Source of the DNA: Armatimonadota bacterium
Lineage (GTDB): Bacteria; Armatimonadota; Zipacnadia; Zipacnadales; VGFC01
DNA: 32,900 nucleotides
Direction: 5' to 3'
Assembly (NCBI GenBank): GCA_016869045.1
Contig: VGFC01000032.1
Location: 1 to 32,900 of the forward strand
Every line of letters starts with the position of its first letter. Within the stretch, counting starts at the first letter, position 1. A program made the position numbers and the translations under genes. The notes under the pieces were generated by a model that was given only the letters and a program-made list of their open reading frames with translations, did no database searches and was not told the origin of the DNA. Below are positions 4,085 to 30,375 of this stretch, one piece after another.

Positions 4085-4266
4085 GGGGGCCCCCGGGTCG
4101 CGCGGTGGGTTGCCTGGAAGCGCAAGGCGCGCAGGCCTATCCGACATTCTGCGCCGGATGGGCAGAGCCCTGCCTCTGTTCGGGCGGCCGTAGACAGAGC
4201 AGGAAACGGGCCGCTTGGGGGGAATCGTCAGCCTCAGTCGCCAAACTCGGCGGAGGAGGCCCTCCG

Positions 4267-5148
4267 ATGTACGTGGTGTTCCTGGACGAGAGCGGATCAG
4301 CCTATGCCGACTACCGGAGCTTCCGCGACAAGTACGAGACGCGCCTGCAAGCTATCGCTGGCGGGCCAGTTCCCCCATATCCGTACTTCGTTCTCGCGTC
4401 CGTCGGGTTGCGTGAACACCATCTGCCCATGGTTGACCAGTGGCTTGGGGACATCAAACGGAGTTTCCTCGGCAGCGCGAGCCCTCAAGCCAGACAGGAG
4501 TATGAGATCAAGGGAGAGGTGCTATACTCCCTGCGCGAGGGGCGAACTCCGGCCGCGTGGCAAGGCACACGCAGGAAGAAGCAGCAAGCAGCGGCTGCGG
4601 CTCAGATGGCCATCTGGCGGTCCTTGGCGCCTCACGATCTGGCGCAACTCGAGGAGTCCGTCTTCGACCTCCTTGGTCGCCTCTCGCCGACGGTATGGGT
4701 GGTGGTTGTCAGGCAGCGAGACATCTTCAGGAGGTTCCGCGAGCGAACGTGGGCCCCCCACTACTGGGCGCTGACGTACGTTCAGCAGCGGGTCGTCCAG
4801 TACGTTCAGATGGCCCGAGGCGCTTACGAGCGTGCGATGTTTCTGATGGATGAGACGTCTAGCCTGAACACCGCAGCCCAGTTCGACCGGTACCTCGCGG
4901 TTCGGGAGACGATCAACAACAGCGCTGCGTGGCCGGTTGAGTTTGGGCGCCATCTGCTGGACATCCCGGTGTCCGGCAAGTCGCACCTTCACCAGGGGCT
5001 GCAGCTAGCTGACATCGTCGCACACGCCGTCTGGCGTCACGTCCACAAGCACGATCCCCTGGGCTGGTTCGGCCGCATCGAGCCGTACCTTCAGCGGCAC
5101 TGGAAGACGGGCACGTACCGCAACGCGGGCCTCACCTACATCTACTAA
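4267..5148 (+). CDS. DUF3800 domain protein
   Basis: 293 residues from an ATG at 4267 with a GGAGGA ribosome site about 7-10 nt upstream. The N-terminus MYVVFLDESGS is the DUF3800 signature, with Asp and Glu on the first strand. A second acidic motif FLMDETSS and the late LQLADIVAHAVWRH complete the pattern, which is generally viewed as an RNase H-like nuclease fold with an Asp in each key position. DUF3800 proteins have no settled biochemical role and are common in mobile or defence regions. The gene stands alone, is less GC-rich than its neighbours, and is followed at once by a candidate small RNA on the other strand. Family call firm, function unknown. Confidence 0.88.
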   Translation: MYVVFLDESGSAYADYRSFRDKYETRLQAIAGGPVPPYPYFVLASVGLREHHLPMVDQWLGDIKRSFLGSASPQARQEYEIKGEVLYSLREGRTPAAWQGTRRKKQQAAAAAQMAIWRSLAPHDLAQLEESVFDLLGRLSPTVWVVVVRQRDIFRRFRERTWAPHYWALTYVQQRVVQYVQMARGAYERAMFLMDETSSLNTAAQFDRYLAVRETINNSAAWPVEFGRHLLDIPVSGKSHLHQGLQLADIVAHAVWRHVHKHDPLGWFGRIEPYLQRHWKTGTYRNAGLTYIY

Positions 5149-5161
5149 GGGGCCACCACAG

Positions 5162-5186
5162 AAAAGGCCACCCCGAGAGGTGGCCT
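5162..5186 (-). terminator. Intrinsic terminator of the candidate small RNA
   Basis: AGGCCACC (5165-5172) pairs perfectly with GGTGGCCT (5179-5186) around a 6-nt loop. On the minus strand the stem is followed by TTTTC (5165-5161), giving a normal intrinsic terminator. On the plus strand it is followed by GGAGAAGC with no T-run, so it is a poor terminator for the DUF3800 gene. Confidence 0.65.
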
Positions 5187-5228
5187 GGAGAAGCAAGCGA
5201 CCAGGCACGAAGCCCGCCACTCACCACT
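5162..5228 (-). ncRNA. Candidate small RNA antisense-oriented next to the DUF3800 gene
   Basis: Inferred transcript of about 67-70 nt bounded by a promoter at 5235-5262 and a terminator at 5162-5186, both on the minus strand, in the 107-bp gap between DUF3800 and the next gene. Reading the minus strand, ACCAG at the 5' end (5231-5227) can pair with CTGGT about 30 nt later, enclosing a GC-rich part with short GGC/GCC pairing; then comes a pyrimidine-rich linker and the terminator stem. No convincing short peptide fits. From memory, conserved RNA motifs named after DUF3800 have been described beside such genes (Weinberg and colleagues, 2017); whether this one belongs to them needs a covariance-model search. 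Confidence 0.5.
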
Positions 5229-5234
5229 GGTAGG

Positions 5235-5262
5235 AGTATACCACAAACACGGCTGATGTCAA
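5235..5262 (-). promoter_or_regulatory. Near-consensus sigma70 promoter firing into the DUF3800 3' side
   Basis: Minus strand TTGACA (5262-5257), 16-nt spacer, TATACT (5240-5235). The -35 is perfect and the -10 matches five of six. Expected start point is A5231 or A5228. No minus-strand protein gene follows, so the promoter only makes sense for the short RNA. The -35 overlaps the most upstream ATG (5256) of the plus-strand glycoside hydrolase gene. Confidence 0.65.
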
Positions 5263-7442
5263 CATCGAGAAGGATGCGCTCTGCTCAGGGCCCCGTGCTG
5301 GTCTGCGGTCTTCTGGTCCTCTGCCGCACGGTTCCTGCTGAGGAGGCCCCCATGCTGACGATTCGCGAAGGCGACCTATGCGTTGCCCTTCGGGACGGGG
5401 CGAGTGTGCCCGAGCAACGCGCGGCGGAGCTGCTCAGCGCCGAGGTGTCGCGGCGCTGCGGCTTCGCAGTGCCGGTCGGCGCGGGCCAGGCGCGCTACGC
5501 GCTGCACCTCGGGATCGATCCAGCGCTCCCGACCGACGGTTTCCGCCTCGAGATTGCGCCCGGCGGGCGTCTCTCGATCCTGGGCCAGAGCCCCAGCGGC
5601 GTCGTCGCGGGCGTCGGCAGGCTCCTGCGGCTGATGCGCTACCAGGACGGCAGCCTGGAGATTCCTCAGGTGGACGTGACGGACGCGCCCGTCCTGCCGA
5701 TCCGCGGCATCTACTTCGCCTCCCACTTCTTCAACTTCTACCACGTGGCCCCGCTGGAGGAAGTGGACCGCGTCATTGAGGACTTCGCGCTCTGGGGCGG
5801 CAACCAGCTCATCGTTTGGTTCGACATGCACCATTTCCGGGACTTCCGGGACCCGGCGGCTCAGGAGCACTTCGCCCGGCTCAAGCACTTCGGCGAGACG
5901 GCCCACTCGTTGGGAATGCAGTTCGGGCTGACCTTCATCGCGAACGAGGCGTATGACTCAAGCCCGGTGGAACTGCGCGCCGACTCGCGTACGGGCACGG
6001 CGCACTACGAGCGTGAGCTGTGCCCCTCTAAGCCCGGCGCGCTGGAGCTGATCGGCAAGTGGCAGGCGGAGGAGCTGGACGCCTTCCGCGACGTGGACTT
6101 CATCTGGATGTGGCCCTACGATCAGGGCGGCTGCGCATGCCCGGACTGCGCGCCGTGGGGCGCCAACGGCTTCCTGAAGTGCTCGGAGCAGCTCGCGAAG
6201 CTCTACCACGACCGCTTCCCCGAGGGCAAGCGCTGGCTCTCGACGTGGCTGATCGACCAGGTGAACGCCAAGGGCGAGTACGAGGGCCTCTTCCGCTACG
6301 TCCGCGAGAAGCAGCCGGACTGGTTCGACGGCTACGTCATCGGCACGCATGGCGACTGGATTCCGCAGCCGCTGCTAGAGCGCCCGTTCCCCGAGCGCTA
6401 CCCGATGGCCGCTTTCCCCGAGATCTCGATGTACCGCATGGGCCCGTGGGGAGAGCACGGCGCGAACCCCTTGCCTGGCTTCAACACGCGCCTCGCCGAG
6501 AAGCTCCGGGGCAACATCCTCGGTGGCTGGCCCTATTCCGAGGGCATCTACGAAGACCTGAACAAGTGGTTCTGGTGCCGCTTCTACTGGAACCCGAACG
6601 GGGCGACCGATGAGATGCTGGCGGAGTACGCGACCTACTACCTCAGCCCCGAGGTCGCGACGGACGCGGTTCGCCTGTTCCACTTGATGGAGCAGACCCA
6701 CGCGCGGAACGGCTGGCGGGTGGCGAACCTGGAGGGTGCCGACGAGGAGTGGCGGCTCGCGCAGAGCATCGACGTGCGGCTGCCCGCCTGGGCGAAGCAG
6801 TCGTGGCGTTGGCGCATCCTGTACATCCGCGCCGCGATCGACGGGACCCTCCAAGAGCAGGGCTTCAACGATCCCCTGGCCCGCGAGAAGCTGCGTCCGC
6901 TGTGCGACGAGCTGGTCGCGATCTACCACGCCGACCGCACGTTCATCCGCCCGCCGGAGTTCCCACCCGCGCCCGATCCCCGCAACGTCGCCTACGGGAA
7001 GCCGGTGACGGTGTCGTCATGCGGAGTGGGCTACGAGGATCGGCCCAAGCACCTGACCGACAGCGTCCTCTCGCAACATGACGGTGAGAACTTCTGGTGC
7101 CACAATCCCAAACAGGAACCGACGGCGACCGTTACGATCGACCTCGGCGAGCCGGTGCGGGTTGCGGATGTCCGCTTGCAGTTCCGCGGCCTGCACGGCG
7201 TGTACTGGTTCATCCCGGAGAGCCTGGAGCTCCAGACCTCCGTCGATGGCGAGCGCTTCTCAACCGTCACGACCACGCACGACCTGCCGGTCGAAGGCAG
7301 CCCCTACGCGCCTGACCTGCGTGTGTACGCGGTGGGGGCCGAGGCGCGCTACGTCCGCCTCGTCCTCGGCCCGTCCCAGCACAAGGGGGACCAGTTCGCA
7401 GGGGTGATTGAGCTGACCGAGGTGGAGGTCTACCGGGGGTAG
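5256..7442 (+). CDS. Secreted GH20-like glycosidase-type protein with C-terminal F5/8 type C (discoidin) domain
   Basis: 728 residues. A signal peptide with Arg-rich start and hydrophobic VLVCGLLVLC ends near PAEEAP. Residues about 35-130 resemble the small alpha/beta domain preceding GH20 and GH67 barrels. A TIM-barrel-like region follows (about 145-490): RGIYFASHFFNFYHV, NQLIVWFDMHHF, WMWPYDQGGCACPDCAPWG. From about residue 575 a discoidin domain begins with NVAYGKPVTVSS and ends ELTEVEVYRG; such domains bind carbohydrate. The classic GH20 Asp-Glu pair is not obvious, so activity may differ. Start uncertain: ATG 5256 and ATG 5274 lack a spaced ribosome site, while ATG 5352 has a strong AGGAGG 5 nt upstream but would remove the signal peptide. 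Confidence 0.72.
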   Translation: MSTSRRMRSAQGPVLVCGLLVLCRTVPAEEAPMLTIREGDLCVALRDGASVPEQRAAELLSAEVSRRCGFAVPVGAGQARYALHLGIDPALPTDGFRLEIAPGGRLSILGQSPSGVVAGVGRLLRLMRYQDGSLEIPQVDVTDAPVLPIRGIYFASHFFNFYHVAPLEEVDRVIEDFALWGGNQLIVWFDMHHFRDFRDPAAQEHFARLKHFGETAHSLGMQFGLTFIANEAYDSSPVELRADSRTGTAHYERELCPSKPGALELIGKWQAEELDAFRDVDFIWMWPYDQGGCACPDCAPWGANGFLKCSEQLAKLYHDRFPEGKRWLSTWLIDQVNAKGEYEGLFRYVREKQPDWFDGYVIGTHGDWIPQPLLERPFPERYPMAAFPEISMYRMGPWGEHGANPLPGFNTRLAEKLRGNILGGWPYSEGIYEDLNKWFWCRFYWNPNGATDEMLAEYATYYLSPEVATDAVRLFHLMEQTHARNGWRVANLEGADEEWRLAQSIDVRLPAWAKQSWRWRILYIRAAIDGTLQEQGFNDPLAREKLRPLCDELVAIYHADRTFIRPPEFPPAPDPRNVAYGKPVTVSSCGVGYEDRPKHLTDSVLSQHDGENFWCHNPKQEPTATVTIDLGEPVRVADVRLQFRGLHGVYWFIPESLELQTSVDGERFSTVTTTHDLPVEGSPYAPDLRVYAVGAEARYVRLVLGPSQHKGDQFAGVIELTEVEVYRG

Positions 7443-9307: not shown

Positions 9308-9790
9308 TCGAGCACCCAAACGCAGGTGTCGTGGGAGGGGCCGAATGCGAAGCATCCGGCCCGGTGTCCAGCGCCCCAACGCGGGCGTCGTGGGAGGGGC
9401 CGAATGCGGAGCATCCGGCCCGGCGTTCAGCGCCCAGACACGGGTGTCGTGGGAGGGGCCGAATGCGAAGCATCCGGCCCGGCGTTCAGCGCCCAGACAC
9501 GGGTGTCGTGGGAGGGGCCGAATGCGGAGCATCCGGCCCGGCGTTCAGCGCCCAGACACGGGTGTCGTGGGAGGGGCCGAATGCGAAGCATCCGGCCCGG
9601 TGTTCAGCGCCCAGACACGGGTGTCGTGGGAGGGGCCGAATGCGGAGCATCCGGCCCGGTGTTCAGCGCCCAAACACGGGTGTCGTGGGAGGGGCCGAAT
9701 GCGAAGCATCCGGCCCGGTGTTCAGCGCCCAGACACGGGTGTCGTGGGAGGGGCCGAATGCGAAGCATCCGGCCCGGTGTTCAGCGCCGA
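9308..9790. repeat. 59-bp tandem repeat array, eight copies
   Basis: The landmark GTCGTGGGAGGGGCCGAATG recurs at 9328, 9387, 9446, 9505, 9564, 9623, 9682 and 9741, an exact 59-bp period. Each unit carries two palindromes: a short GACAC-GG-GTGTC hairpin and a longer GGGCCGAATGC / GCATCCGGCCC hairpin with one mismatch (a G-U pair if transcribed from the minus strand) around GAA or GGA. Units are directly contiguous, so it is not a CRISPR. Because 59 is not a multiple of three, repetitive reading frames appear in all three frames and are artefacts. The array ends about 20 bp before the hrcA promoter. Confidence 0.92.
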
Positions 9791-9837: not shown

Positions 9838-9896
9838 TCGTGCCGCGGGAAGCCTGCGCCACGGGGAGGGCGCCGGGCGGGCAAGAGGGTGTGACC

Positions 9897-10943
9897 GTGG
9901 CCGACAGCAGATCACCAACACCGACCGAGCGACAGCAGCGCATCCTTGCGGCCATCGTGCGCGAGTGCACGCGAACGGGTCACCCGGTCGGCTCCAAGAC
10001 CGCGCGCGAGGCCCACGAGATCCCCGCCAGCTCGGCGACGATCCGCAACGAGATGGCGGCGCTGACCGAGATGGGGTTGCTCGAACAGCCCCATACCTCC
10101 GCCGGGCGGCGCCCCACCGATCGCGGCTACCGCTACTTCGTCGAGAATCTGATGGCCGAGGAGCCGCTGGAACTGCGTGAGACCGCGTGGGTCCGGAGCG
10201 CCTTCCGCCGAAGCGTGGACCGCTCGTCCGACGTGTTGCGGGAGGCCGCGCGACTGCTCTCCGAACTGCTGCAGTGTCCGGCGGTCGTCCTGTCGCCCCG
10301 TGAGCCTTCCCGCCAACTGCAGCACTTCCACGCCTCGCCCGTCAGCTCTCGGAACGTCCTCCTCGTGTTCGTGACCGCCGACGGTCACGTCGAGAACCGC
10401 CTTGTGGAGCTGCCCGCGCCGGTCACCTCGCCGCAGCTGGAGCGACTGAGCGAGGTTCTGAACCGGCGCTTCGTGGGTGCGGAGATCGGGGCGCTCACCC
10501 GGCTCGACGTCGAGTACGTGCTTGCCGAGATGGGCGACCTGGCGCTACCGCGGGCGGTCATCGAGGCGCTCCGGCAGGGCATGGAGCACGAGCAGCAGCA
10601 CGACGTCTACCTCGACGGCGCGATCTACATCCTGCAGGACCCGGAGTTCACGCGGGCTCGCGAGCTGCGGGACATCGTCGAGACGCTGTATCAGGAGCGG
10701 CTCATCCGTCAGCTCCTCAGGCCCTTCGCCCGGGAGAGGCGCGTCTGCGTACGAATCGGGGCCGAGAATCCTCTGCCCGCCGCGCGGGGATGCGGCGTGG
10801 TGGCGACGACGTATGTCGGCGGCACGGGCTCGCGAGGAGTCGTGGCGGCACTGGGGCCCAAGCGCATGAGATACTGGCGCGCGATACCGGCCGTCACGTG
10901 TGTGGCCGGTGAGTTGACCGAGCACTTGGGCGCCGCCCGGTAG
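9897..10943 (+). CDS. hrcA: Heat-inducible transcription repressor HrcA
   Basis: 348 residues, the usual HrcA length, from GTG 9897 with AGAGGG about 7 nt upstream; GTG 9891 is too close to that site. The N-terminal winged helix (residues about 8-75) shows TERQQRILAAIV, VGSKTAREAHEIPASSATIR and the wing LEQPHTSAGRRPTDRGYRYFV, diagnostic for HrcA. A GAF-like dimer domain follows. HrcA represses chaperone genes by binding CIRCE operators and needs a chaperonin, normally GroEL, for activity. Here the next gene is a group III chaperonin instead. It opens an operon with that chaperonin, grpE and a lipoyl-domain gene. Confidence 0.95.
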   Translation: MADSRSPTPTERQQRILAAIVRECTRTGHPVGSKTAREAHEIPASSATIRNEMAALTEMGLLEQPHTSAGRRPTDRGYRYFVENLMAEEPLELRETAWVRSAFRRSVDRSSDVLREAARLLSELLQCPAVVLSPREPSRQLQHFHASPVSSRNVLLVFVTADGHVENRLVELPAPVTSPQLERLSEVLNRRFVGAEIGALTRLDVEYVLAEMGDLALPRAVIEALRQGMEHEQQHDVYLDGAIYILQDPEFTRARELRDIVETLYQERLIRQLLRPFARERRVCVRIGAENPLPAARGCGVVATTYVGGTGSRGVVAALGPKRMRYWRAIPAVTCVAGELTEHLGAAR

Positions 10944-11004: not shown

Positions 11005-11024
11005 ATTCGCCAGAGGTGTCGGCC

Positions 11025-12644
11025 ATGGGTGAGACCCCTGCTACACCGTCTTCGTTGTCCGATGTGGACGAGAGGCGACGCGCGCTCCGCTCGAACGCCG
11101 GCGCGGTGCGCACCATTGCGTCGGCCGTCGAGGGCACCCTGGGGCCCAAGGGCCTCGACGTCATGCTGGTCGATCGCTACGGCGACGTGACGATCACCAA
11201 CGACGGATCGACCATCCTCGGCAGGATCGACGCCCAGCACCCGGCCTCGCGCCTGCTGATCCACGCCGCGCAGGCGCAGGACGAGGCGGTCGGCGACGGC
11301 ACCACCACGGCGATCGTGCTGGCTGCCGCGCTCGTCGAGGCAGGCGTGTCTCACATCCTCCAGGGCGTTCCGGCCACCAAGGTCATCGAGGGGATGCGGG
11401 CGGGCCTGCAGGCGGCCCTGGAGTGGCTGGAAGGGGCTGCCGTAAGGGTGACGAGTCTCGACGATCCGCTGCTTTCGGCGGCGGCGCAGGTCTCGGCGCG
11501 CGGCAACGCGGCGCTGGCCGACCTGGCGGTGAGGGCGGCGTCGATCGTGCCGCCGGACAAGCTCCTGCACGACCCGGCGTTTCGGCTCGGCAAGTGCGTG
11601 GTTGCTCAGGAAGGGGCGGCGGATTCGGTCTTCGAAGGCCTCATCATCGACAAGGACCGCCTGAACCGGCAGATGCCCTCGGTGGTGCGAGACGCGCGCG
11701 TGCTCGTGGTTGCGGATGCGCTGGAGCCGGAGAAGGTCGATGACGAGGCGCTCGCCACCGAGGCCGGGTTCCGGCGACACACAGCCTTGCGCGAGGAGTT
11801 CGAGGCGAGCATCCGCGGGCTCATCGACCTCGGAGCCAACTTCGTGGCGGTCGAGCGACGCGTCGATGAGGTGGCCGAGGAGCTGCTGACCGAGGCGGGC
11901 GTGATGGTCCTGCGGCGCCTCGGACGCCGGGACCTGGCGGCGATCATCGACCACTGCGGCGCCAGGCCGATCATGCGGTCCGGCCTGCGGCGTGGGGGAG
12001 AGGAGATCGCCCGGGCGTTGGGCACGGCCGAAGAGATCGCGGAGGATGAGCGGCTCGGCTTCGTCTCCATCCGCGGCGGCGGGGGCGTGCCGGCAGCCAC
12101 CATCCTTGTCGGTGCGGGAACGGCCGAGGTCAAAGACGAGCGGCTGCGGATCGCCCACGACGCGGCCTCGGCGGTACAGGCGACGGCGAGGGGAGGTGCG
12201 CTGCCCGGCGGCGGCGCGGCGGAGATCGGCGCCCTGCCGGCGGTCGCGCGATGCCGGGACGAGCTGACCGGCATGGCGGTCTACGGCGCCGAGGCCGTGC
12301 TGGCGGCGCTGCGGCGGCCGCTGGCGCAGATCGTGGCCAACGCGGGCCTCAACCCGCTGGAGAAAGTGGCCCAGGTCGTGGCCCGGCAGTCGGCAAGCGG
12401 CAGCCCTGCGCTGGCCATCGACTGCGACTCGGGCGAGATCGCCGACATGCTCGCCGCGGGCATCGTCGATCCGGCGCCCGTGAAGCTCTCGGCTCTGAGA
12501 ACTGCGGGCGAGATCGCGGAGGCCATCCTGCGTATCGGTGTCGTTATTAGAATGAGAGCGCCCCAGACGAGTGCCGACGGGGAAGAGCCCCCGGGCACGG
12601 CGCGCGGCGCGTCTCTGACGACGTCTGATGTTGGGGGACTGTAG
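11025..12644 (+). CDS. Group III chaperonin (archaeal thermosome/TCP-1-like) in a bacterial heat-shock operon
   Basis: 539 residues from ATG 11025, preceded by AGAGGTG at 6 nt; an in-frame GTG at 11016 lies inside that site. Chaperonin equatorial motifs: TLGPKGLDVMLV (about 38-49), TNDGSTIL (58-65) and EAVGDGTTTAIVLA (87-100), whose Asp91 is the ATPase Asp. GGALPGGGAAEI and IVDPAPVKLSALRTA lie in the C-terminal equatorial half. TNDGSTIL and the overall pattern follow the thermosome/CCT lineage, not GroEL, and no GroES gene is adjacent. Bacterial copies of this class, called group III, were described in Carboxydothermus and other Firmicutes, often in the dnaK operon (Techtmann and Robb 2010). 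It likely forms a double ring with built-in lid. Confidence 0.88.
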   Translation: MGETPATPSSLSDVDERRRALRSNAGAVRTIASAVEGTLGPKGLDVMLVDRYGDVTITNDGSTILGRIDAQHPASRLLIHAAQAQDEAVGDGTTTAIVLAAALVEAGVSHILQGVPATKVIEGMRAGLQAALEWLEGAAVRVTSLDDPLLSAAAQVSARGNAALADLAVRAASIVPPDKLLHDPAFRLGKCVVAQEGAADSVFEGLIIDKDRLNRQMPSVVRDARVLVVADALEPEKVDDEALATEAGFRRHTALREEFEASIRGLIDLGANFVAVERRVDEVAEELLTEAGVMVLRRLGRRDLAAIIDHCGARPIMRSGLRRGGEEIARALGTAEEIAEDERLGFVSIRGGGGVPAATILVGAGTAEVKDERLRIAHDAASAVQATARGGALPGGGAAEIGALPAVARCRDELTGMAVYGAEAVLAALRRPLAQIVANAGLNPLEKVAQVVARQSASGSPALAIDCDSGEIADMLAAGIVDPAPVKLSALRTAGEIAEAILRIGVVIRMRAPQTSADGEEPPGTARGASLTTSDVGGL

Positions 12645-12645
12645 G

Positions 12646-13314
12646 ATGGGCAAGACCAACGCGGAGGGTGGAAACGGCCCGCGGCGGATTCGGATCTCCT
12701 CTCCCGAGGACGAGCCTCTCGCCGAACCGGAAGCCGCTGAGTGTCCCTTCGTGCCGGGCGCCGACGCGGCCTCGGCCGAGATACCGGCGGCCGTGCAGAT
12801 CGAGAACGATGCGGACGAGCAAGCCACCGAGGAGGAGATGGGGAAGCTGCAGGAGCTGCTCGGCGAACTCGAGCAGAAGTGCGCCTTCGCCGAGGACCAG
12901 CATCTCCGCGTGGTGGCCGAGCTCCAGAACTACAAGCGTCGCGTCCATCAGGAGAAGGAGCAGATCGCCCGGTTCGCGCTCGAAGGTCTCGTCACGGAGC
13001 TGATCCCGACCCTGGACAACTTCGAGCGCGCGATGGAGGTCACGGTGGACTCGGCCGGTGCCGAGTGCCTGATGGCCGGCGTGAAGATGATCCACGACCA
13101 GCTCCAGACCGTCCTGGCGGGCCACGGCGTCGAGCGCATCGAGGCGTTGGGAGCGGACTTCGACCCTCACCTCCACGAGGCGGTTGAGAAGGAAGAGTCC
13201 ACGGCGCTCCCTCCGAACGTCGTCGTGCGGGAACTCGCGAAGGGCTACGCGCTCAACGGCCGCCTGCTGAGGCCCGCTCGCGTCCGGGTCACCGTGCCGC
13301 CGGCGCCGGAATGA
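12646..13314 (+). CDS. grpE: Nucleotide exchange factor GrpE
   Basis: 222 residues from ATG 12646, one base after the chaperonin stop, with GGGGGAC upstream, so translation is probably coupled. A low-complexity acidic N-terminus (1-65) leads to the long dimer helix with LRVVAELQNYKRRVHQEKEQ (a GrpE hallmark), then LIPTLDNFERAM and the C-terminal beta domain FDPHLHEAVEKEES and VVRELAKGYALNGRLLRPARV. GrpE releases ADP from DnaK. Neither dnaK nor dnaJ follows in the window, unlike most hrcA-grpE operons, so they must lie elsewhere. Strong call. Confidence 0.95.
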   Translation: MGKTNAEGGNGPRRIRISSPEDEPLAEPEAAECPFVPGADAASAEIPAAVQIENDADEQATEEEMGKLQELLGELEQKCAFAEDQHLRVVAELQNYKRRVHQEKEQIARFALEGLVTELIPTLDNFERAMEVTVDSAGAECLMAGVKMIHDQLQTVLAGHGVERIEALGADFDPHLHEAVEKEESTALPPNVVVRELAKGYALNGRLLRPARVRVTVPPAPE

Positions 13315-13604: not shown

Positions 13605-13717
13605 TCCGCGATTCTCGTCCGAGCCCTTCCCGTGTGGGGGCGCGACTGTCGTCCGAGCCGTTTCCATGTAGGGGCGCGATTCATCGCGCCCAAGAACCGA
13701 CATCGCGGATTCCCACA
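13605..13717. repeat. Composite palindromic element A (short terminal inverted repeat)
   Basis: It begins TCCGCGAT and ends ATCGCGGA, with CTCGTCCGAGCC after the left end and AAGAACCGACATCGCGG at the right. Inside is one intact hairpin unit GTAGGGGCGCGATTC...GCGCCC (13668-13691) plus a degraded one. The same frame is found at 18190-18316, with three internal hairpins there. It fills most of the gap between the lipoyl gene and the ModA-like lipoprotein gene. Confidence 0.75.
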
Positions 13718-18189: not shown

Positions 18190-18316
18190 CCGCGATTCTC
18201 GTCCGAGCCGTTCCCATGTAGGGGCGCGATTCATCGCGCCCGAATGTAGGGGCGTCATTCATGACGCCCGCCGTGTAGGGGCGACATTCATGGCGCCCAA
18301 GAACCGATATCGCGGA
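18190..18316. repeat. Composite palindromic element A, second copy
   Basis: It starts CCGCGATTCTCGTCCGAGCC and ends GAACCGATATCGCGG, the same ends as the copy at 13605-13717. Between are three hairpin units in tandem: 18218-18241 (perfect), 18245-18269 (perfect, different stem) and 18274-18298 (one stem mismatch). It fills the gap upstream of the HMBD lipoprotein gene. Confidence 0.78.
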
Positions 18317-20863: not shown

Positions 20864-21131
20864 GAGAGCCCTTATGAGAAGGGTGGCCGGGCGCCATGAA
20901 GACTGTGTTGACAAACGGTACTGGCGGCTCTGGTGAGCCGCCCCACGAGCTCTACAAGACTCGTGGCGCGGCTCACCAGAGCCGCGATACGCCTTGCTCA
21001 ACAGAATCTGAATGGTGCCCCTACGTCACAAACGACCGCATATCGCCCTCATGTAGGGGCGCGATTCATCGCGCCTGCGTGTAGGGGCGTGATTCATCAC
21101 GCCCCATACCGTGCTTCTCATACACGCTCTC
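20864..21131. repeat. MITE-like element with 18-bp terminal inverted repeats, copy 2, carrying an internal nested hairpin
   Basis: Left end GAGAGCCCTTATGAGAAG (20864-20881) and right end (21114-21131) match as inverted repeats at 15 of 18 positions. Both ends and the inner sequence agree with the copy at 16330-16516. Two forward GTAGGGGC...GCCC-type hairpins lie at 21053-21075 and 21081-21104. The left pair is replaced by a nested palindrome: 18-nt arms at 20924-20941 and 20968-20985 plus CACGAG/CTCGTG inside, and each 18-nt arm is itself a hairpin. It fills the gap before the DUF1501 gene. Confidence 0.82.
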
Positions 21132-25904: not shown

Positions 25905-26030
25905 CGTCGCCGCTGTGCCTGCGAGACTCCCGTCTCGCAGCCGTCCCGTCGCCGTTGTGCCTGCGAGACTCCCGTCTCGCAGCCGTCCCGTCGCCGTTGT
26001 GCCTGCGAGACTCCCGTCTCGCAGCCGTCC
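25905..26030. repeat. Three tandem copies of a 42-bp unit with internal palindrome
   Basis: Units start at 25905, 25947 and 25989. Each contains CTGCGAGAC, TCCC, GTCTCGCAG, a perfect 9-bp-arm hairpin (first at 25919-25940, then +42 and +84). It begins right after the stop of the secreted protein gene and lies upstream of the CHAT-STAND gene. The 42-bp period is a multiple of three, so frames run through it without stops; that extension of the next gene is not credible as protein. Confidence 0.9.
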
Positions 26031-26042
26031 CTGCCGTTCCCC

Positions 26043-26072
26043 TTTCGTGTCTTTCGTGTGTTTCGTGGTTCC
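26043..26072. repeat. TTTCGTGT-type triplet repeat, copy 1
   Basis: Three 9-10-bp steps TTTCGTGTC, TTTCGTGTG, TTTCGTGGTTCC. Related copies at 30511-30542 (with CCGTGT in place of TTCGTGT) and 31531-31560 share the same end GTGGTTCC. It lies 70 bp before the CHAT-STAND gene. Role unknown. Confidence 0.65.
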
Positions 26073-26140
26073 TCGCCGTGCCGTTCCCCCGCAGGACTCC
26101 GCTCCTCTTCCGTCGAATACCGGTTCGGGGTGTGATCGAC

Positions 26141-29100
26141 ATGGCCGAGTACACGCTTTCGACGTTCCAGCAAGACCCCTCCCACGTCCAGGTCCGCTTC
26201 GCCGCGGGAACCGCCTCTCCGTCCGTCCACGAACTCTCCCTCGATGCCGTTCAGGCCTTCGCCGCCGACGTGGAGGCGAAGCTCCAGCTCATCGGCAACC
26301 ACGCCGGCTGGCTCCAGCCGCAGCTCGACCTCGGCCGCGCGCTGTACCGTTGGCTGCACGAGGTCACCGAGGGGCGCATCGACGAGGCCGTCGCCTCGCC
26401 CGGGACGTTGACCTTGCGCTTCGCCCTCCTCCCGGAGCTACAGGTCCTGCCTTGGGAGCTGCTCGCCCGCGGTACCTTCCTCGCCCATGACGCCACGCGC
26501 CCCTTCTCGCCGGTGCGCGTGTGCAACGCGACACATGAGTGGCCGCCGCAGGCCAACCGTCCACTGCGCGTGCTCTTCATGGCCTGTTCGCCGCAGAACC
26601 TGCCGGAGGAGGAGGTGCTCCGCTTCGAGGAGGAGGAGAACCTCATCCTCGATGCAGCACGGGGCCCTTCCATCGAGCTGCAGGTCGAGGAGAGCGGCAG
26701 CCTCGCGGGGCTGAAGCAGCGCCTCGCGGACTTCGGCGATGGGCACTTCGACGTCGTGCACCTCACCGGCCACGCGAACATCGTGGATGGCAATCCGTAC
26801 TTCGCCGCCGAGGATGACTTCGGCCAGGCGAAGCCCGCCTTTGCCGATGACTTCGGCGAGGCCTTCGGCACGATCTGGCCGCGCGTGGTGGTGGTGTCCG
26901 GCTGCAAGACGGGCCAGGCCGGCGCGGGCGGCGCCTTCCCCTCGCTCAGCGAGAAGCTCGTCGAGTCCGGCGCGGCGGCGGTAGTCGGCTGGAGCGCCAG
27001 CGTCGCCGACGCGACCGGCAACGTCTGCGCCCAGCATCTCTACGGAGAACTCTGCGGCGCCCGCCCGCTGTGCGAGTCGGTCGCCGAGGCCCGCCGCGAG
27101 CTGCTCAATGCCAACCGCTCGGACTGGCACCTCCTCCGCCTCTACACCGGTCATGGGCCACTCGGCCCGCTCGTCACCCCGCTCAACACGAAGCGCCGCG
27201 CGCGCGTTCATCTGCGCCCCGCGCAGACCCAGATGCTCGGGCAGGGCTGCAAGACCGAGGTGGCCAAGCGCGAGAGCTTCGTCGGCCGCCGCCGTCCGCT
27301 GCAGGCCTGCCTCCGCGCCCTCTCCACCGTGCCCGGCACGCCCGACCACGTCCACGGCGTACTCATCCACGGCATGGGCGGCCTGGGGAAGAGCAGCCTC
27401 GCCGCGCGCCTCATGGATCGCCTGTCCAGCCACCGTCGCGTCGTCATCCCCGGCGCCTTCGACGAGACCGAGTTCATCCGTCGCGCCGCCGACCAGCTTC
27501 CCGCCGAAGCCGGCAAGCTCCTCAACGAGCCCGACCTCAGCCTCCGCCACCGCCTCCAGGCCGTCTTCGAAGGTCCCTTGGCCGCCGAGTCAGCCATCTT
27601 CCTCTTCGATGACTTCGAGCACAACATCGACCTCTCCCTGGATGCGCATCCGCCCTCCCCGCCTACGGACCCCACGTGTCTCGTAGGTCGGGATACCAAT
27701 CCCGACATCGCCTTTGTCAACACAACCCGTGCTCTGCCCCCGCCTTCGCTCAACCCCGACGCCCGCGACGTCCTCGCCGCCCTCTTCCACGCGCTGGAGG
27801 ACACCGGCTCCGATACCCGCGTGATCGTGACGAGCCGCTACCAGTTCCCCGTCCCCGCGCCTGGCCGCCTCTCCGACCAGGGCCTCCTCTCCATGCACGG
27901 GGCCGAGCTGCAGAAGAAGTGCGACCTGCTCCCGGCATGGCAGGCGGGCAGCAAGGTCGAGGCAAAGGCACGGCAGGACGCCGTGCACGTGTCGGGCGGG
28001 AATCCGCGCCTGTTGGAGTGGCTGGACAAGGTGCTGGCTGGCTATACGGGTGCGGAGGCGCAGGGCATCATGGCGTCAATGCAGGCGAAGGCCGCCGAGT
28101 TCCGCGAGGACGTCCTCGCCGAGCAGCTCATCACCCGCGAGGGCGAGCCGCTGCGCCGCCTGCTGGCCCTCTGGTCACTCCCAACGCTCCCGGTCCCTGA
28201 GGCCGCCTTCCGCGCTCTCGCCGGCGATGCCGACTTCGGCGACGCCCTCACTCGCGCCGTCAGCGTTGGCCTCGTCGAGGCCGGCCTCGACGAAGAGACG
28301 CAGCAGCCTCTCTACCATGTCTCCGACACGCTGGACAGGCTGACCGACTCCGCCGTCACCCCCGCCGACCGCGAACAGGCCGCCTATCGCGCCGCGGAGG
28401 CGCTCCACCAGGTCTGGTGGGTGCCGCGGGGAGGCGCGCGCGAGGACCGGGCGTGGGAGATCCTCCGCCTGGCGGTCGATGGGAAGCACCTGGAGGTTGC
28501 GGCGGGGGTGGGTGATGCGATCAGCGCGGCGATGTACAACCGCAGTCGCTTCCGCGAGGCAGCCGCGGTGGCCGCCATAGCCTTGTCGGTCGGCGAGGAC
28601 TACCGCCTTCTTCACGCCCTCGCCCGTGCGGAGGAGGTGCTGGGCGAGGCCTCCGCCGCCCTCGTCCACTACCAGAGGGCTCTGGCCCTGTGCCCCGCGG
28701 GCGACGCGTTGCCCGCGGCGGTCGTGCGCGAGCGCGGGTCCATCTTGCACAACACGGCCATCCTTTGCGTGCGCCAGGGCGACCTCGGAAGCGCTGTGGC
28801 GCTCTGCCGCCTGTCCCTGGCCGCCAAGGAGCAGACGGGCGACGACGTCGGCACGGCTGCGACACTGCACGTCTTGGCTGACATCCATAGGCAGCGTGGC
28901 GAACTCGACGACGCTCTGGGCCTCTGCGAACGGGCCGTGCGCATCTGCGAGACGAGGCGAGACGCCCGCGGCAAGGCGGCCACGCTGCACCAGATGGCTG
29001 GTATCCACGAGCGGCGAGGCGACCCAGAACAGGCCCTGGCATTCTACCAGCAGTGCCTGCCCATTCAGGAACGGATTGGCGACGCCCTCGGCATGGCCGC

Positions 29101-29776
29101 AACGCTCCACAACATGGCCCTCATCAACGAACAGCGCGGGGACGTCCGAGGCGGTCTGGCGCTCTACGAGCAGTCCCTACGCATCTCAGAGGAGATTGGT
29201 GACGCCCACGGCAAGGCGGCTACGCTGGCCGGCATGGCGGCCACGGCTTGGCGGCGAGGGGACACCATGGCGGCGCAGACCTACTCGGCCCAGGCGGCCT
29301 CGATCCTCGTCGCCGCGAGAGCCTGGCCGGACGCCGTGACCGTCATCGGGAACCTGTCGGAATACGACTCAGGCCGAGCGCAGACGTATCTGGCGCAGAC
29401 GCTCTGGTTGGCCCTACGGGCGGAGGCCCAACTGCAGCAGACCATCCTGACTGCCGGGCACTTGCAGCAGGACCTCGGCAGCGACCAGGCCGTCGCGCCC
29501 CTCCTCGCGACGACCGCGATGTACTTCGTCACGAGGCGCGGCGAGAAGCATGTGGAGCGAGAGGAACTCGAAGGCGTCGCTTGGGGCATGTTGGGGGCCT
29601 GCGCTGAGGCCCGAGGAATCGCGGCAGAGGACATCCCCGCATGGGTCGAGCGCGAGCGCCTCAACGACGCAGACTACTTCCTCCCGGCGTTGAGTCGAGC
29701 CTTGGAGGAGATGGTCGGCGAGGATGAGTGGCTGTTCGACCGAACCCAGGTGCCCCGGCCCGAGTGGGACGCCTGA
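26141..29776 (+). CDS. CHAT protease - STAND NTPase - TPR protein
   Basis: 1211 residues from ATG 26141, GGGG about 10 nt upstream. Residues 1-130 are a beta-rich N-terminal domain. A CHAT caspase-like domain follows (about 140-360), with catalytic His211 in VVHLTGHANIV and Cys255 in VVVVSGCKTGQAG. After a linker with KRESFVGRRRPL (about 385) comes an NTPase: Walker A GMGGLGKSS (411-419, Lys417), Walker B IFLFDDFE (Asp490, Asp491) and sensor RVIVTSRY (about 561-568), then a winged-helix-like part. TPRs with an exact 40-residue period run from about 820 to 1060, e.g. at 904, 944, 984 and 1024. This NLR-like plan suggests a switch in which ligand binding to TPRs frees a peptidase. Defence role inferred. 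A palindrome is inserted between Walker B and the sensor. Confidence 0.88.
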   Translation: MAEYTLSTFQQDPSHVQVRFAAGTASPSVHELSLDAVQAFAADVEAKLQLIGNHAGWLQPQLDLGRALYRWLHEVTEGRIDEAVASPGTLTLRFALLPELQVLPWELLARGTFLAHDATRPFSPVRVCNATHEWPPQANRPLRVLFMACSPQNLPEEEVLRFEEEENLILDAARGPSIELQVEESGSLAGLKQRLADFGDGHFDVVHLTGHANIVDGNPYFAAEDDFGQAKPAFADDFGEAFGTIWPRVVVVSGCKTGQAGAGGAFPSLSEKLVESGAAAVVGWSASVADATGNVCAQHLYGELCGARPLCESVAEARRELLNANRSDWHLLRLYTGHGPLGPLVTPLNTKRRARVHLRPAQTQMLGQGCKTEVAKRESFVGRRRPLQACLRALSTVPGTPDHVHGVLIHGMGGLGKSSLAARLMDRLSSHRRVVIPGAFDETEFIRRAADQLPAEAGKLLNEPDLSLRHRLQAVFEGPLAAESAIFLFDDFEHNIDLSLDAHPPSPPTDPTCLVGRDTNPDIAFVNTTRALPPPSLNPDARDVLAALFHALEDTGSDTRVIVTSRYQFPVPAPGRLSDQGLLSMHGAELQKKCDLLPAWQAGSKVEAKARQDAVHVSGGNPRLLEWLDKVLAGYTGAEAQGIMASMQAKAAEFREDVLAEQLITREGEPLRRLLALWSLPTLPVPEAAFRALAGDADFGDALTRAVSVGLVEAGLDEETQQPLYHVSDTLDRLTDSAVTPADREQAAYRAAEALHQVWWVPRGGAREDRAWEILRLAVDGKHLEVAAGVGDAISAAMYNRSRFREAAAVAAIALSVGEDYRLLHALARAEEVLGEASAALVHYQRALALCPAGDALPAAVVRERGSILHNTAILCVRQGDLGSAVALCRLSLAAKEQTGDDVGTAATLHVLADIHRQRGELDDALGLCERAVRICETRRDARGKAATLHQMAGIHERRGDPEQALAFYQQCLPIQERIGDALGMAATLHNMALINEQRGDVRGGLALYEQSLRISEEIGDAHGKAATLAGMAATAWRRGDTMAAQTYSAQAASILVAARAWPDAVTVIGNLSEYDSGRAQTYLAQTLWLALRAEAQLQQTILTAGHLQQDLGSDQAVAPLLATTAMYFVTRRGEKHVEREELEGVAWGMLGACAEARGIAAEDIPAWVERERLNDADYFLPALSRALEEMVGEDEWLFDRTQVPRPEWDA
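27687..27706. repeat. Palindrome inserted within the NTPase domain coding sequence
   Basis: GTCGGGAT (27687-27694), loop ACCA, ATCCCGAC (27699-27706), a perfect 8-bp-arm hairpin. It is translated as part of VGRDTNPDIAFVNTT in an extra loop of about 30 residues (roughly 506-538) between Walker B and the sensor strand, in a place where related NTPases usually have only a few residues. The loop is Pro-rich and unlike the flanking domain. Confidence 0.72.
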
Positions 29777-29848: not shown

Positions 29849-30127
29849 TCACTGCCTGCGTTCCAGCTCCTCGTAGATCCGGCTCCGGTGGCCCGCCCAG
29901 ACCACGGTCACGACCCGCGCGTCGTCATCCACGCGATAGGCCACGCGGTAGTCGCCGATACGCAGCTTGCGGAACGGTCGGAGCGTGCCGCTGAGGGCTT
30001 CGCTGCCCCACGGGCGAGGGTCGTCGGCCAGCGCGCGAATCCCCGCCCAGATGCGATCGACCACCGGCTGGGGCAGCCGTCTGAGGGCGCGAGGGACCTG
30101 GGCCTCCACGCGAACGGTGTAGCTCAC
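29849..30127 (-). CDS. RelE/ParE-family toxin
   Basis: 92 residues from GTG 30127, whose GTGA overlaps the antitoxin stop by 4 bp, giving coupled translation. The family pattern is clear: VRVEAQVPRALRRLPQPVVDRIWAGIRALADDPRP (paired helices), then LSGTLRPFRKLRIGDYRVAYRVDDDARVVTVVWAGHRSRIYEEL, with the LRIGDYRVAY strand and C-terminal HRSRIYEEL typical of RelE-type toxins. Family members either cut mRNA on the ribosome (RelE) or poison gyrase (ParE); the sequence does not decide which, though HR..IY fits RelE-like. A longer upstream frame is an artefact. The gene faces the CHAT-STAND gene. Confidence 0.9.
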   Translation of the reverse strand: MSYTVRVEAQVPRALRRLPQPVVDRIWAGIRALADDPRPWGSEALSGTLRPFRKLRIGDYRVAYRVDDDARVVTVVWAGHRSRIYEELERRQ

Positions 30128-30375
30128 CGCTTCAGCTCTGCCTCGGCTTCCTCGAGGGTGAGCCACTCGCTGTTGGGGTCCGCCAGTATGCGCTCGCACT
30201 TCTCGGCGAGTAGACGGTCCTCCAACTTGTCCAGCAGTTCGAGATCGTCCAGCGGCACGACCGCAACCAGTGGCTTCCCGTGTCGCTCCACAATCACCCG
30301 CTCCCGTCCGAAGGCGACGCTGTTGACGACTCGCGCCAGGTCCCGGCGCAGGTCGCCCATCGTGATCGCATCCAT
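30124..30375 (-). CDS. Phd/YefM-family antitoxin
   Basis: 83 residues from ATG 30375, preceded by GGAGGGGGAA. The N-terminal DNA-binding dimer domain reads MDAITMGDLRRDLARVVNSVAFGRERVIVERHGKPLVAVVPLDDLELL, the standard Phd/YefM pattern. The C-terminal acidic helix (LEDRLLAEKCERILAD, then LTLEEAEAELKR) would cover the toxin. It neutralises the toxin encoded by the overlapping downstream gene and represses its own promoter. A promoter and a 10-bp-arm operator-like palindrome lie just upstream (30399-30440), consistent with autorepression. Confidence 0.92.
   Translation of the reverse strand: MDAITMGDLRRDLARVVNSVAFGRERVIVERHGKPLVAVVPLDDLELLDKLEDRLLAEKCERILADPNSEWLTLEEAEAELKR

Follow-up and report, generated by a model that had tools for sequence, protein, structure and literature searches.

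A candidate structured small RNA convergent with a DUF3800 gene in an Armatimonadota genome, and recurrence of this arrangement at DUF3800 loci of the phylum

Within the analyzed stretch of 32,900 nucleotides of Armatimonadota DNA (hereafter referred to as the window), a gene encoding a DUF3800 protein is separated from the next gene by a gap of 107 bp. This gap contains, on the minus strand and in the right order, a promoter, about 70 nt of further sequence and a terminator (Table 1). The original prediction had described a TTGACA-16-TATACT promoter followed, after approximately 70 nt, by a perfect 8-bp stem with TTTT; both were found in place, and the -10 element proved to be extended in addition. 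The promoter matches the sigma-70-type consensus at 11 of 12 positions, and some 12 nt separate the end of the terminator from the DUF3800 stop codon.

Table 1. Features of the DUF3800 locus, with positions in the window.
Feature	Position	Strand	Remarks
DUF3800 gene, 293 aa, predicted RNase HII-like nuclease	4267..5148	plus	PF12686, E 5e-11, above curated cut-off
-35 element of the sRNA, TTGACA	5262-5257	minus	sequence inspection and promoter scoring
-10 element of the sRNA, TATACT	5240-5235	minus	extended by TG at 5243-5242; spacer of 16 to the -35 element
Predicted sRNA, ~70 nt	5160..5228	minus	start 7 nt past the -10 element, end within the T run or directly behind it; both ends predicted
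Hairpin 1 (16 bp, six G-U pairs among them; one bulge)	5228-5189	minus	predicted fold
Terminator hairpin AGGCCACC/GGUGGCCU, perfect 8-bp stem, 9 bp with closing G-U	5186-5165	minus	followed by TTTT (5165-5162)
Segment absent from the congeneric genome G001	4087..5265		on the right, clear identity is regained at CGAGAAGGATG (5266), 3 bp past the -35 element; left border blurred

Promoter-like sites scoring at least 10/12 were detected twice in the 32.9-kb window (at 5262 and 30440), both on the minus strand and both reaching 11/12; dinucleotide shuffles of the whole window yielded on average 0.05 sites at 10/12 or better and 0.0 at 11/12. Terminators by themselves are common, two being seen in 3.5 kb versus 1.4 expected. 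The remarkable feature is the combination of promoter and terminator in the correct order within 107 bp, and not the terminator singly. Since the T run is present on the minus strand only, the terminator serves a minus-strand transcript and not the DUF3800 gene. An open-frame check found no convincing protein gene between promoter and terminator, as had been claimed for this unit; the sole candidate inside the sRNA, a GTG frame without a stop within the RNA, was rejected. The second 11/12 promoter is located just upstream of genes for a ParE-type toxin and a Phd/YefM-type antitoxin (29849-30375, minus strand), and the genome therefore seems to use promoters of this kind.

The minus-strand sRNA was predicted to fold with about -37 kcal/mol (-36.9; shuffled mean -28.9; z -2.6), compared with -24.9 kcal/mol for the opposite, plus strand, which lies near its own shuffles (z -0.05). 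Because the six G-U pairs of hairpin 1 turn into A-C on the plus strand, good folding is restricted to the minus strand, a predicted bias that identifies it as the RNA strand. In the predicted fold the RNA is almost fully paired, its longest internal unpaired run comprising 7 nt. The second helix originally assigned to ACCAG/CTGGT is missing from this fold, and ACCAG starts upstream of the expected transcript start (~5228); its place is taken by the longer helix at 5228-5189 (16 bp including the six G-U pairs). As no homologue of the window RNA was found for comparison, support for the fold is thermodynamic, without covariation.

The AlphaFold model of the window DUF3800 protein (mean pLDDT 81.5, pTM 0.84) found its best PDB match in RNase HII (1eke, E 1.7e-4), and the leading 19 PDB matches were all RNase HII, HIII or H2 chains with E rising to about 1, at modest values of 10-12% identity and TM-scores of 0.3-0.44 by query length. 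The RNase H-like look attributed to DUF3800 in the original prediction is thus borne out by the model. In an alignment of 52 DUF3800 sequences, the nearest of which shares 25% identity with the window protein, D7 and D249 are present in 52/52 sequences, Q246 in 51/52 and E8 in 50/52, and the position of D195 is occupied by D or E in 46/52. With the type 2 RNases H (RNase HII/HIII) the protein shares the predicted fold, the N-terminal DE motif and a conserved D near the C-terminal helix, but it differs from them by the low identity and TM-scores given above, and its activity is a prediction from the model. By modelled fold and acidic residues it would belong to the RNase H superfamily as a type 2-like member. 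DUF3800 has been described as an RNase H fold tied to Cas12a2 and to ncRNAs (PMC10910872) and has also been connected to VI-F and V-A2 loci (PMC12669027).

In G001, the sole congeneric genome compared, DUF3800 gene and RNA are both absent between the same two neighbour genes, a TIM-barrel gene (85% identity) and a glycosidase-like gene, which are divergently oriented and about 95 bp apart. Target repeats of at least 8 bp were not found around the segment absent from G001, and the difference may represent either an insertion in one genome or a loss in the other.

RNA motifs associated with DUF3800 genes were reportedly described by Weinberg and colleagues in 2017, and a comparison of the window RNA with such families had been proposed. 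Covariance-model searches returned no match: neither Rfam 15 at gathering/curated thresholds over the whole window, so that none of the listed DUF3800 RNA families (I to XI) was recovered, nor the Rfam DUF3800 RNA models applied to positions 5120-5300 with E up to 10. Matches to isrD, Phe_leader and RNAI obtained under relaxed Rfam settings (E 0.6-7) fell on the terminator stem and were rejected. The window RNA is single-copy in its own genome, where no other copy was found, and a covariance model built from this single sequence detected no relative at other DUF3800 loci; its weak, short matches elsewhere (E 0.001-0.04) came from genomes in which PF12686 had no match and probably represent terminators. 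A second DUF3800 locus in the same genome (L002) carries a different RNA, resembling type G as defined below. Close homologues of the window protein were not found, at the thresholds used, in 291 genomes of the phylum, in 85,000 genomes searched by pattern, or among plasmids, phages and viral contigs. One distant relative was identified in a Thermoflexales genome (L098), and the opposite strand of its 3' flank features TATAAT and hairpins, but a poor -35 element. The check on conservation at homologous loci proposed earlier therefore had no close homologues to draw on; distant DUF3800 loci, on the other hand, share the architecture.

A PF12686 search of the phylum yielded matches in 62 of the 291 genomes, the loci were fetched, and promoters were scored in 71 DUF3800 3' flanks, that of the window included. 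Just past the DUF3800 stop, a promoter on the opposite strand was present in 35/71 flanks at 10/12 or better and in 17/71 at 11/12 or better. The sense strand of the same flanks gave one site and none at these two thresholds, shuffles of the flanks gave 0.3 and 0.0, and the DUF3800 5' flanks gave at most 5/67 and 2/67, respectively. Of the DUF3800 loci examined, about half or more share the convergent geometry; one third of the loci are without a good promoter, and some of these perhaps represent distant PF12686 subfamilies. Furthermore, an Rfam scan of the phylum loci revealed ten distinct RNAs of the families DUF3800-VII (RF02967), DUF3800-VIII (RF03075) or DUF3800-IX (RF02968). All ten are encoded on the opposite strand at the DUF3800 3' end, eight of them with a gap of 2-40 nt to the gene and the other two extending into the called open frame at its end. 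In 42 of 45 RNAs read from the opposite-strand promoters, the RNA strand had the better predicted fold of the two, and the longest internal unpaired run in these 45 RNAs has a median of 5 and a maximum of 10. The window unit shows the same architecture, namely an adjacent DUF3800 domain and an RNA lying directly 3' on the opposite strand with its own promoter. It resembles the Rfam DUF3800-VII, -VIII and -IX RNAs in being a small structured RNA gene of similar length on the opposite strand at the DUF3800 3' end. However, the Rfam RNAs adopt branched folds, whereas the window RNA forms two plain hairpins and has no sequence or covariance-model match to them.

Grouped by sequence, the RNAs of the phylum comprise type A with 10 members, types B, C and G with 4 each and types F and H with 2 each, besides Rfam's IX and VII and singletons including the window RNA; type labels outside Rfam were assigned by eye. 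Placed on the protein tree, the labels require 8 changes, which equals the possible minimum and compares with a shuffled mean of 24.5, one label being wrong in this count: family B had been entered as 'VIII' together with L061. The Rfam VIII match is the RNA at L061, also present in L007, and with L061 set apart family B forms one clade. Judged from these sequences, RNA types follow protein clades and appear to be co-inherited, a pattern that is also expected of any co-inherited neighbouring DNA. In type A, 97% of cells are paired, and 16 double-compensated cells were counted versus 4.6 after shuffling and 0-3 with helices slid; these double compensatory changes make at least one of the unlisted types clearly a structured RNA. 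Family A (L025, L027, L028, L032, L065, L068, L069, L071, L082 and L095) combines three hairpins with an almost invariant AGGTGGA linker, has no Rfam match and merits an RNA family of its own. Types B, C and IX have in common an element consisting of YGAAC, one or two hairpins and then UAGG within an outer helix (for example at L006, L008, L010, L015, L031 and L074). This element occurs in 15 of the 71 DUF3800 3' flanks on the RNA strand, in one on the other strand and in 2.2 after shuffling, and it may represent a protein-binding core; the window RNA is without it.

Outside the phylum, one clearly common RNA type occupies the same place and strand on plasmids of Shinella, Bradyrhizobium, Sinorhizobium, Methylorubrum and Novosphingobium. 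On these alphaproteobacterial plasmids (L105-L110), the convergent RNA downstream of DUF3800 is composed of TGGA, a hairpin, TCGGCGTC, the terminator and TTCGCTTTT, and a partly similar stretch exists in Paraburkholderia (L111). Hairpin RNAs with a terminator, convergent as in the window, were also observed at the DUF3800 genes of the actinophages Rhodococcus phage Sleepyhead and Gordonia phage WinkNick (L112, L113); in the latter phage, the DUF3800/RNA pair lies directly after the immunity repressor gene and near the integrase. Rfam matched none of the plasmid or actinophage DUF3800 RNAs, and at a Mucilaginibacter locus (L104) neither a common RNA sequence nor a common fold was found. Promoter scores outside the phylum are lower (7 to 10 of 12), so that the case there rests on common RNA sequence and fold. 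Like the window RNA, the unlisted types (A, B, C, F, G and H, the alphaproteobacterial plasmid type and that of the actinophages) share place, strand, promoter and mostly a terminator, but each belongs to another protein clade and has no sequence similarity to the window RNA.

The minus-strand unit is very likely an RNA gene that belongs with the DUF3800 gene, and the window RNA is most likely a divergent, unlisted DUF3800-associated sRNA, of a known kind by its architecture. In the mechanism proposed, the sRNA would be transcribed from its own sigma-70-type promoter, fold into two hairpins and stop at the intrinsic terminator just short of the DUF3800 gene. The Rfam DUF3800 RNAs, which occupy the same position, suggest by analogy that this RNA is dedicated to the neighbouring RNase HII-like nuclease as its partner; it would act as a folded ligand, be it a bound substrate, an inhibitor or a scaffold, which the protein would recognize through its shape. 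Arrangement, co-inheritance and compact folds all argue for such a dedicated RNA. That the convergent sRNA and the DUF3800 gene form one cassette, in which the RNA is the nuclease's dedicated folded partner and not a pairing guide, is considered the probable reading; for the window pair, we infer that the RNA is transcribed and bound and that the protein is catalytically active, and the same applies to any role akin to addiction or defence.

Other explanations of the locus were weighed against this reading. As convergent transcription by construction makes the RNA complementary to the 3' untranslated part of the DUF3800 message, and the RNA comes within 12 nt of the stop codon, it could be a cis-antisense regulator that controls message stability or terminates transcription by collision, with the protein not being its partner. 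This is unlikely: at a distance of ~880 nt from the start codon a block of translation initiation is not expected, several RNA types per protein clade are kept, Rfam lists DUF3800 RNAs as sRNA genes, and the helices of family A are maintained by double compensatory changes that antisense pairing does not need. Possible as antisense control of the message is, it leaves these conserved internal helices unexplained. A chance or housekeeping constellation, in which the terminator of the DUF3800 gene adjoins a back-directed promoter of the downstream glycosidase-like gene and no functional RNA is made, appears quite improbable. Terminator-like hairpins are indeed common, GTATAC in the -10 region has partial symmetry, and ~5256 marks the start of a plus-strand gene. 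However, the T run restricted to the minus strand means that the terminator is not that of DUF3800, a promoter of 11/12 stands against an expectation near 0, and the same arrangement is found at 35/71 loci with differing neighbours, the longest downstream frame having one orientation in 28 cases and the other in 15.

Omega RNAs guide the nucleases TnpB and IscB, and the original prediction had accordingly considered that the DUF3800 protein might be guided by its RNA. An RNA directing an RNase H-fold protein to targets by pairing would agree with the RNase H-like fold, with a structured RNA adjoining the gene and with the occurrence of DUF3800 proteins in some Cas12a2 loci (PMC10910872). Nevertheless, such guidance is highly improbable, as nothing in these RNAs is unpaired or variable over a sufficient length: the window RNA, almost fully paired, is without an OMEGA-type unpaired variable guide segment, and the runs reported above for it and for the 45 RNAs are too short for one. 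Moreover, the RNase HII-like fold is without the extra domains generally known from RNA-guided nucleases. In type III toxin-antitoxin systems, the antitoxin consists of tandem RNA repeats that precede the toxin gene. With these (ToxIN) and other RNA-toxin modules, the window locus has in common an RNase with an adjacent structured RNA and, from what is generally known of them, a patchy distribution; it differs in that its RNA is convergent, located 3' and single-copy, no tandem repeat being found at the window sRNA, and in that its nuclease is of another fold.

If the partnership of RNA and nuclease were extended beyond the window, DUF3800 genes in general would be one half of a widespread two-gene module consisting of an RNase HII-like nuclease and a convergent, clade-specific structured sRNA that controls, or is neutralized by, the nuclease. 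Such an undescribed addiction or defence module, of which Rfam would list only a part, is put forward tentatively and appears rather doubtful at present; if it were true, the window pair would be a highly divergent case whose RNA is unlisted. A DUF3800 accessory gene was rated essential in a transposon screen, within a list containing antitoxins (PMC7811196), which is a hint suiting an addiction pair, from one gene in one study. A defence role received no support from any sequence search run; PADLOC left the window protein unmatched and assigned one of five proteins tried to a candidate defence model. For years, RNAs have been catalogued near DUF3800 genes with no function attached to them, and the fixed position of promoter, strand and RNA relative to the stop codon, the tie between RNA type and clade and the RNase HII-like fold now make the partnership specific enough to test. 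A simple rule, namely inspection of the opposite strand just past the stop codon, finds an RNA at many DUF3800 genes, including ones that existing covariance models miss.

Further features of the window were recorded. A Cpn60/TCP1 family chaperonin gene (11016-12644) lies between hrcA and grpE (flanking genes at 9840-10943 and 12628-13314), and by eye the chaperonin looks nearer to the thermosome (group II/III) type than to GroEL. Upstream of hrcA, a tandem array of a 59-bp unit comprises 8 copies that are 95% alike (9311-9788). Short tandem repeats with a common ATGTAGGGG core are scattered between genes at 13607-13679, 18216-18298 and 21042-21103 and resemble a dispersed intergenic repeat. 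Finally, a single open frame of 1273 aa (25955-29776) combines a CHAT protease domain, an AAA_16 ATPase and TPR repeats, a mix of domains that occurs in signalling and defence proteins.
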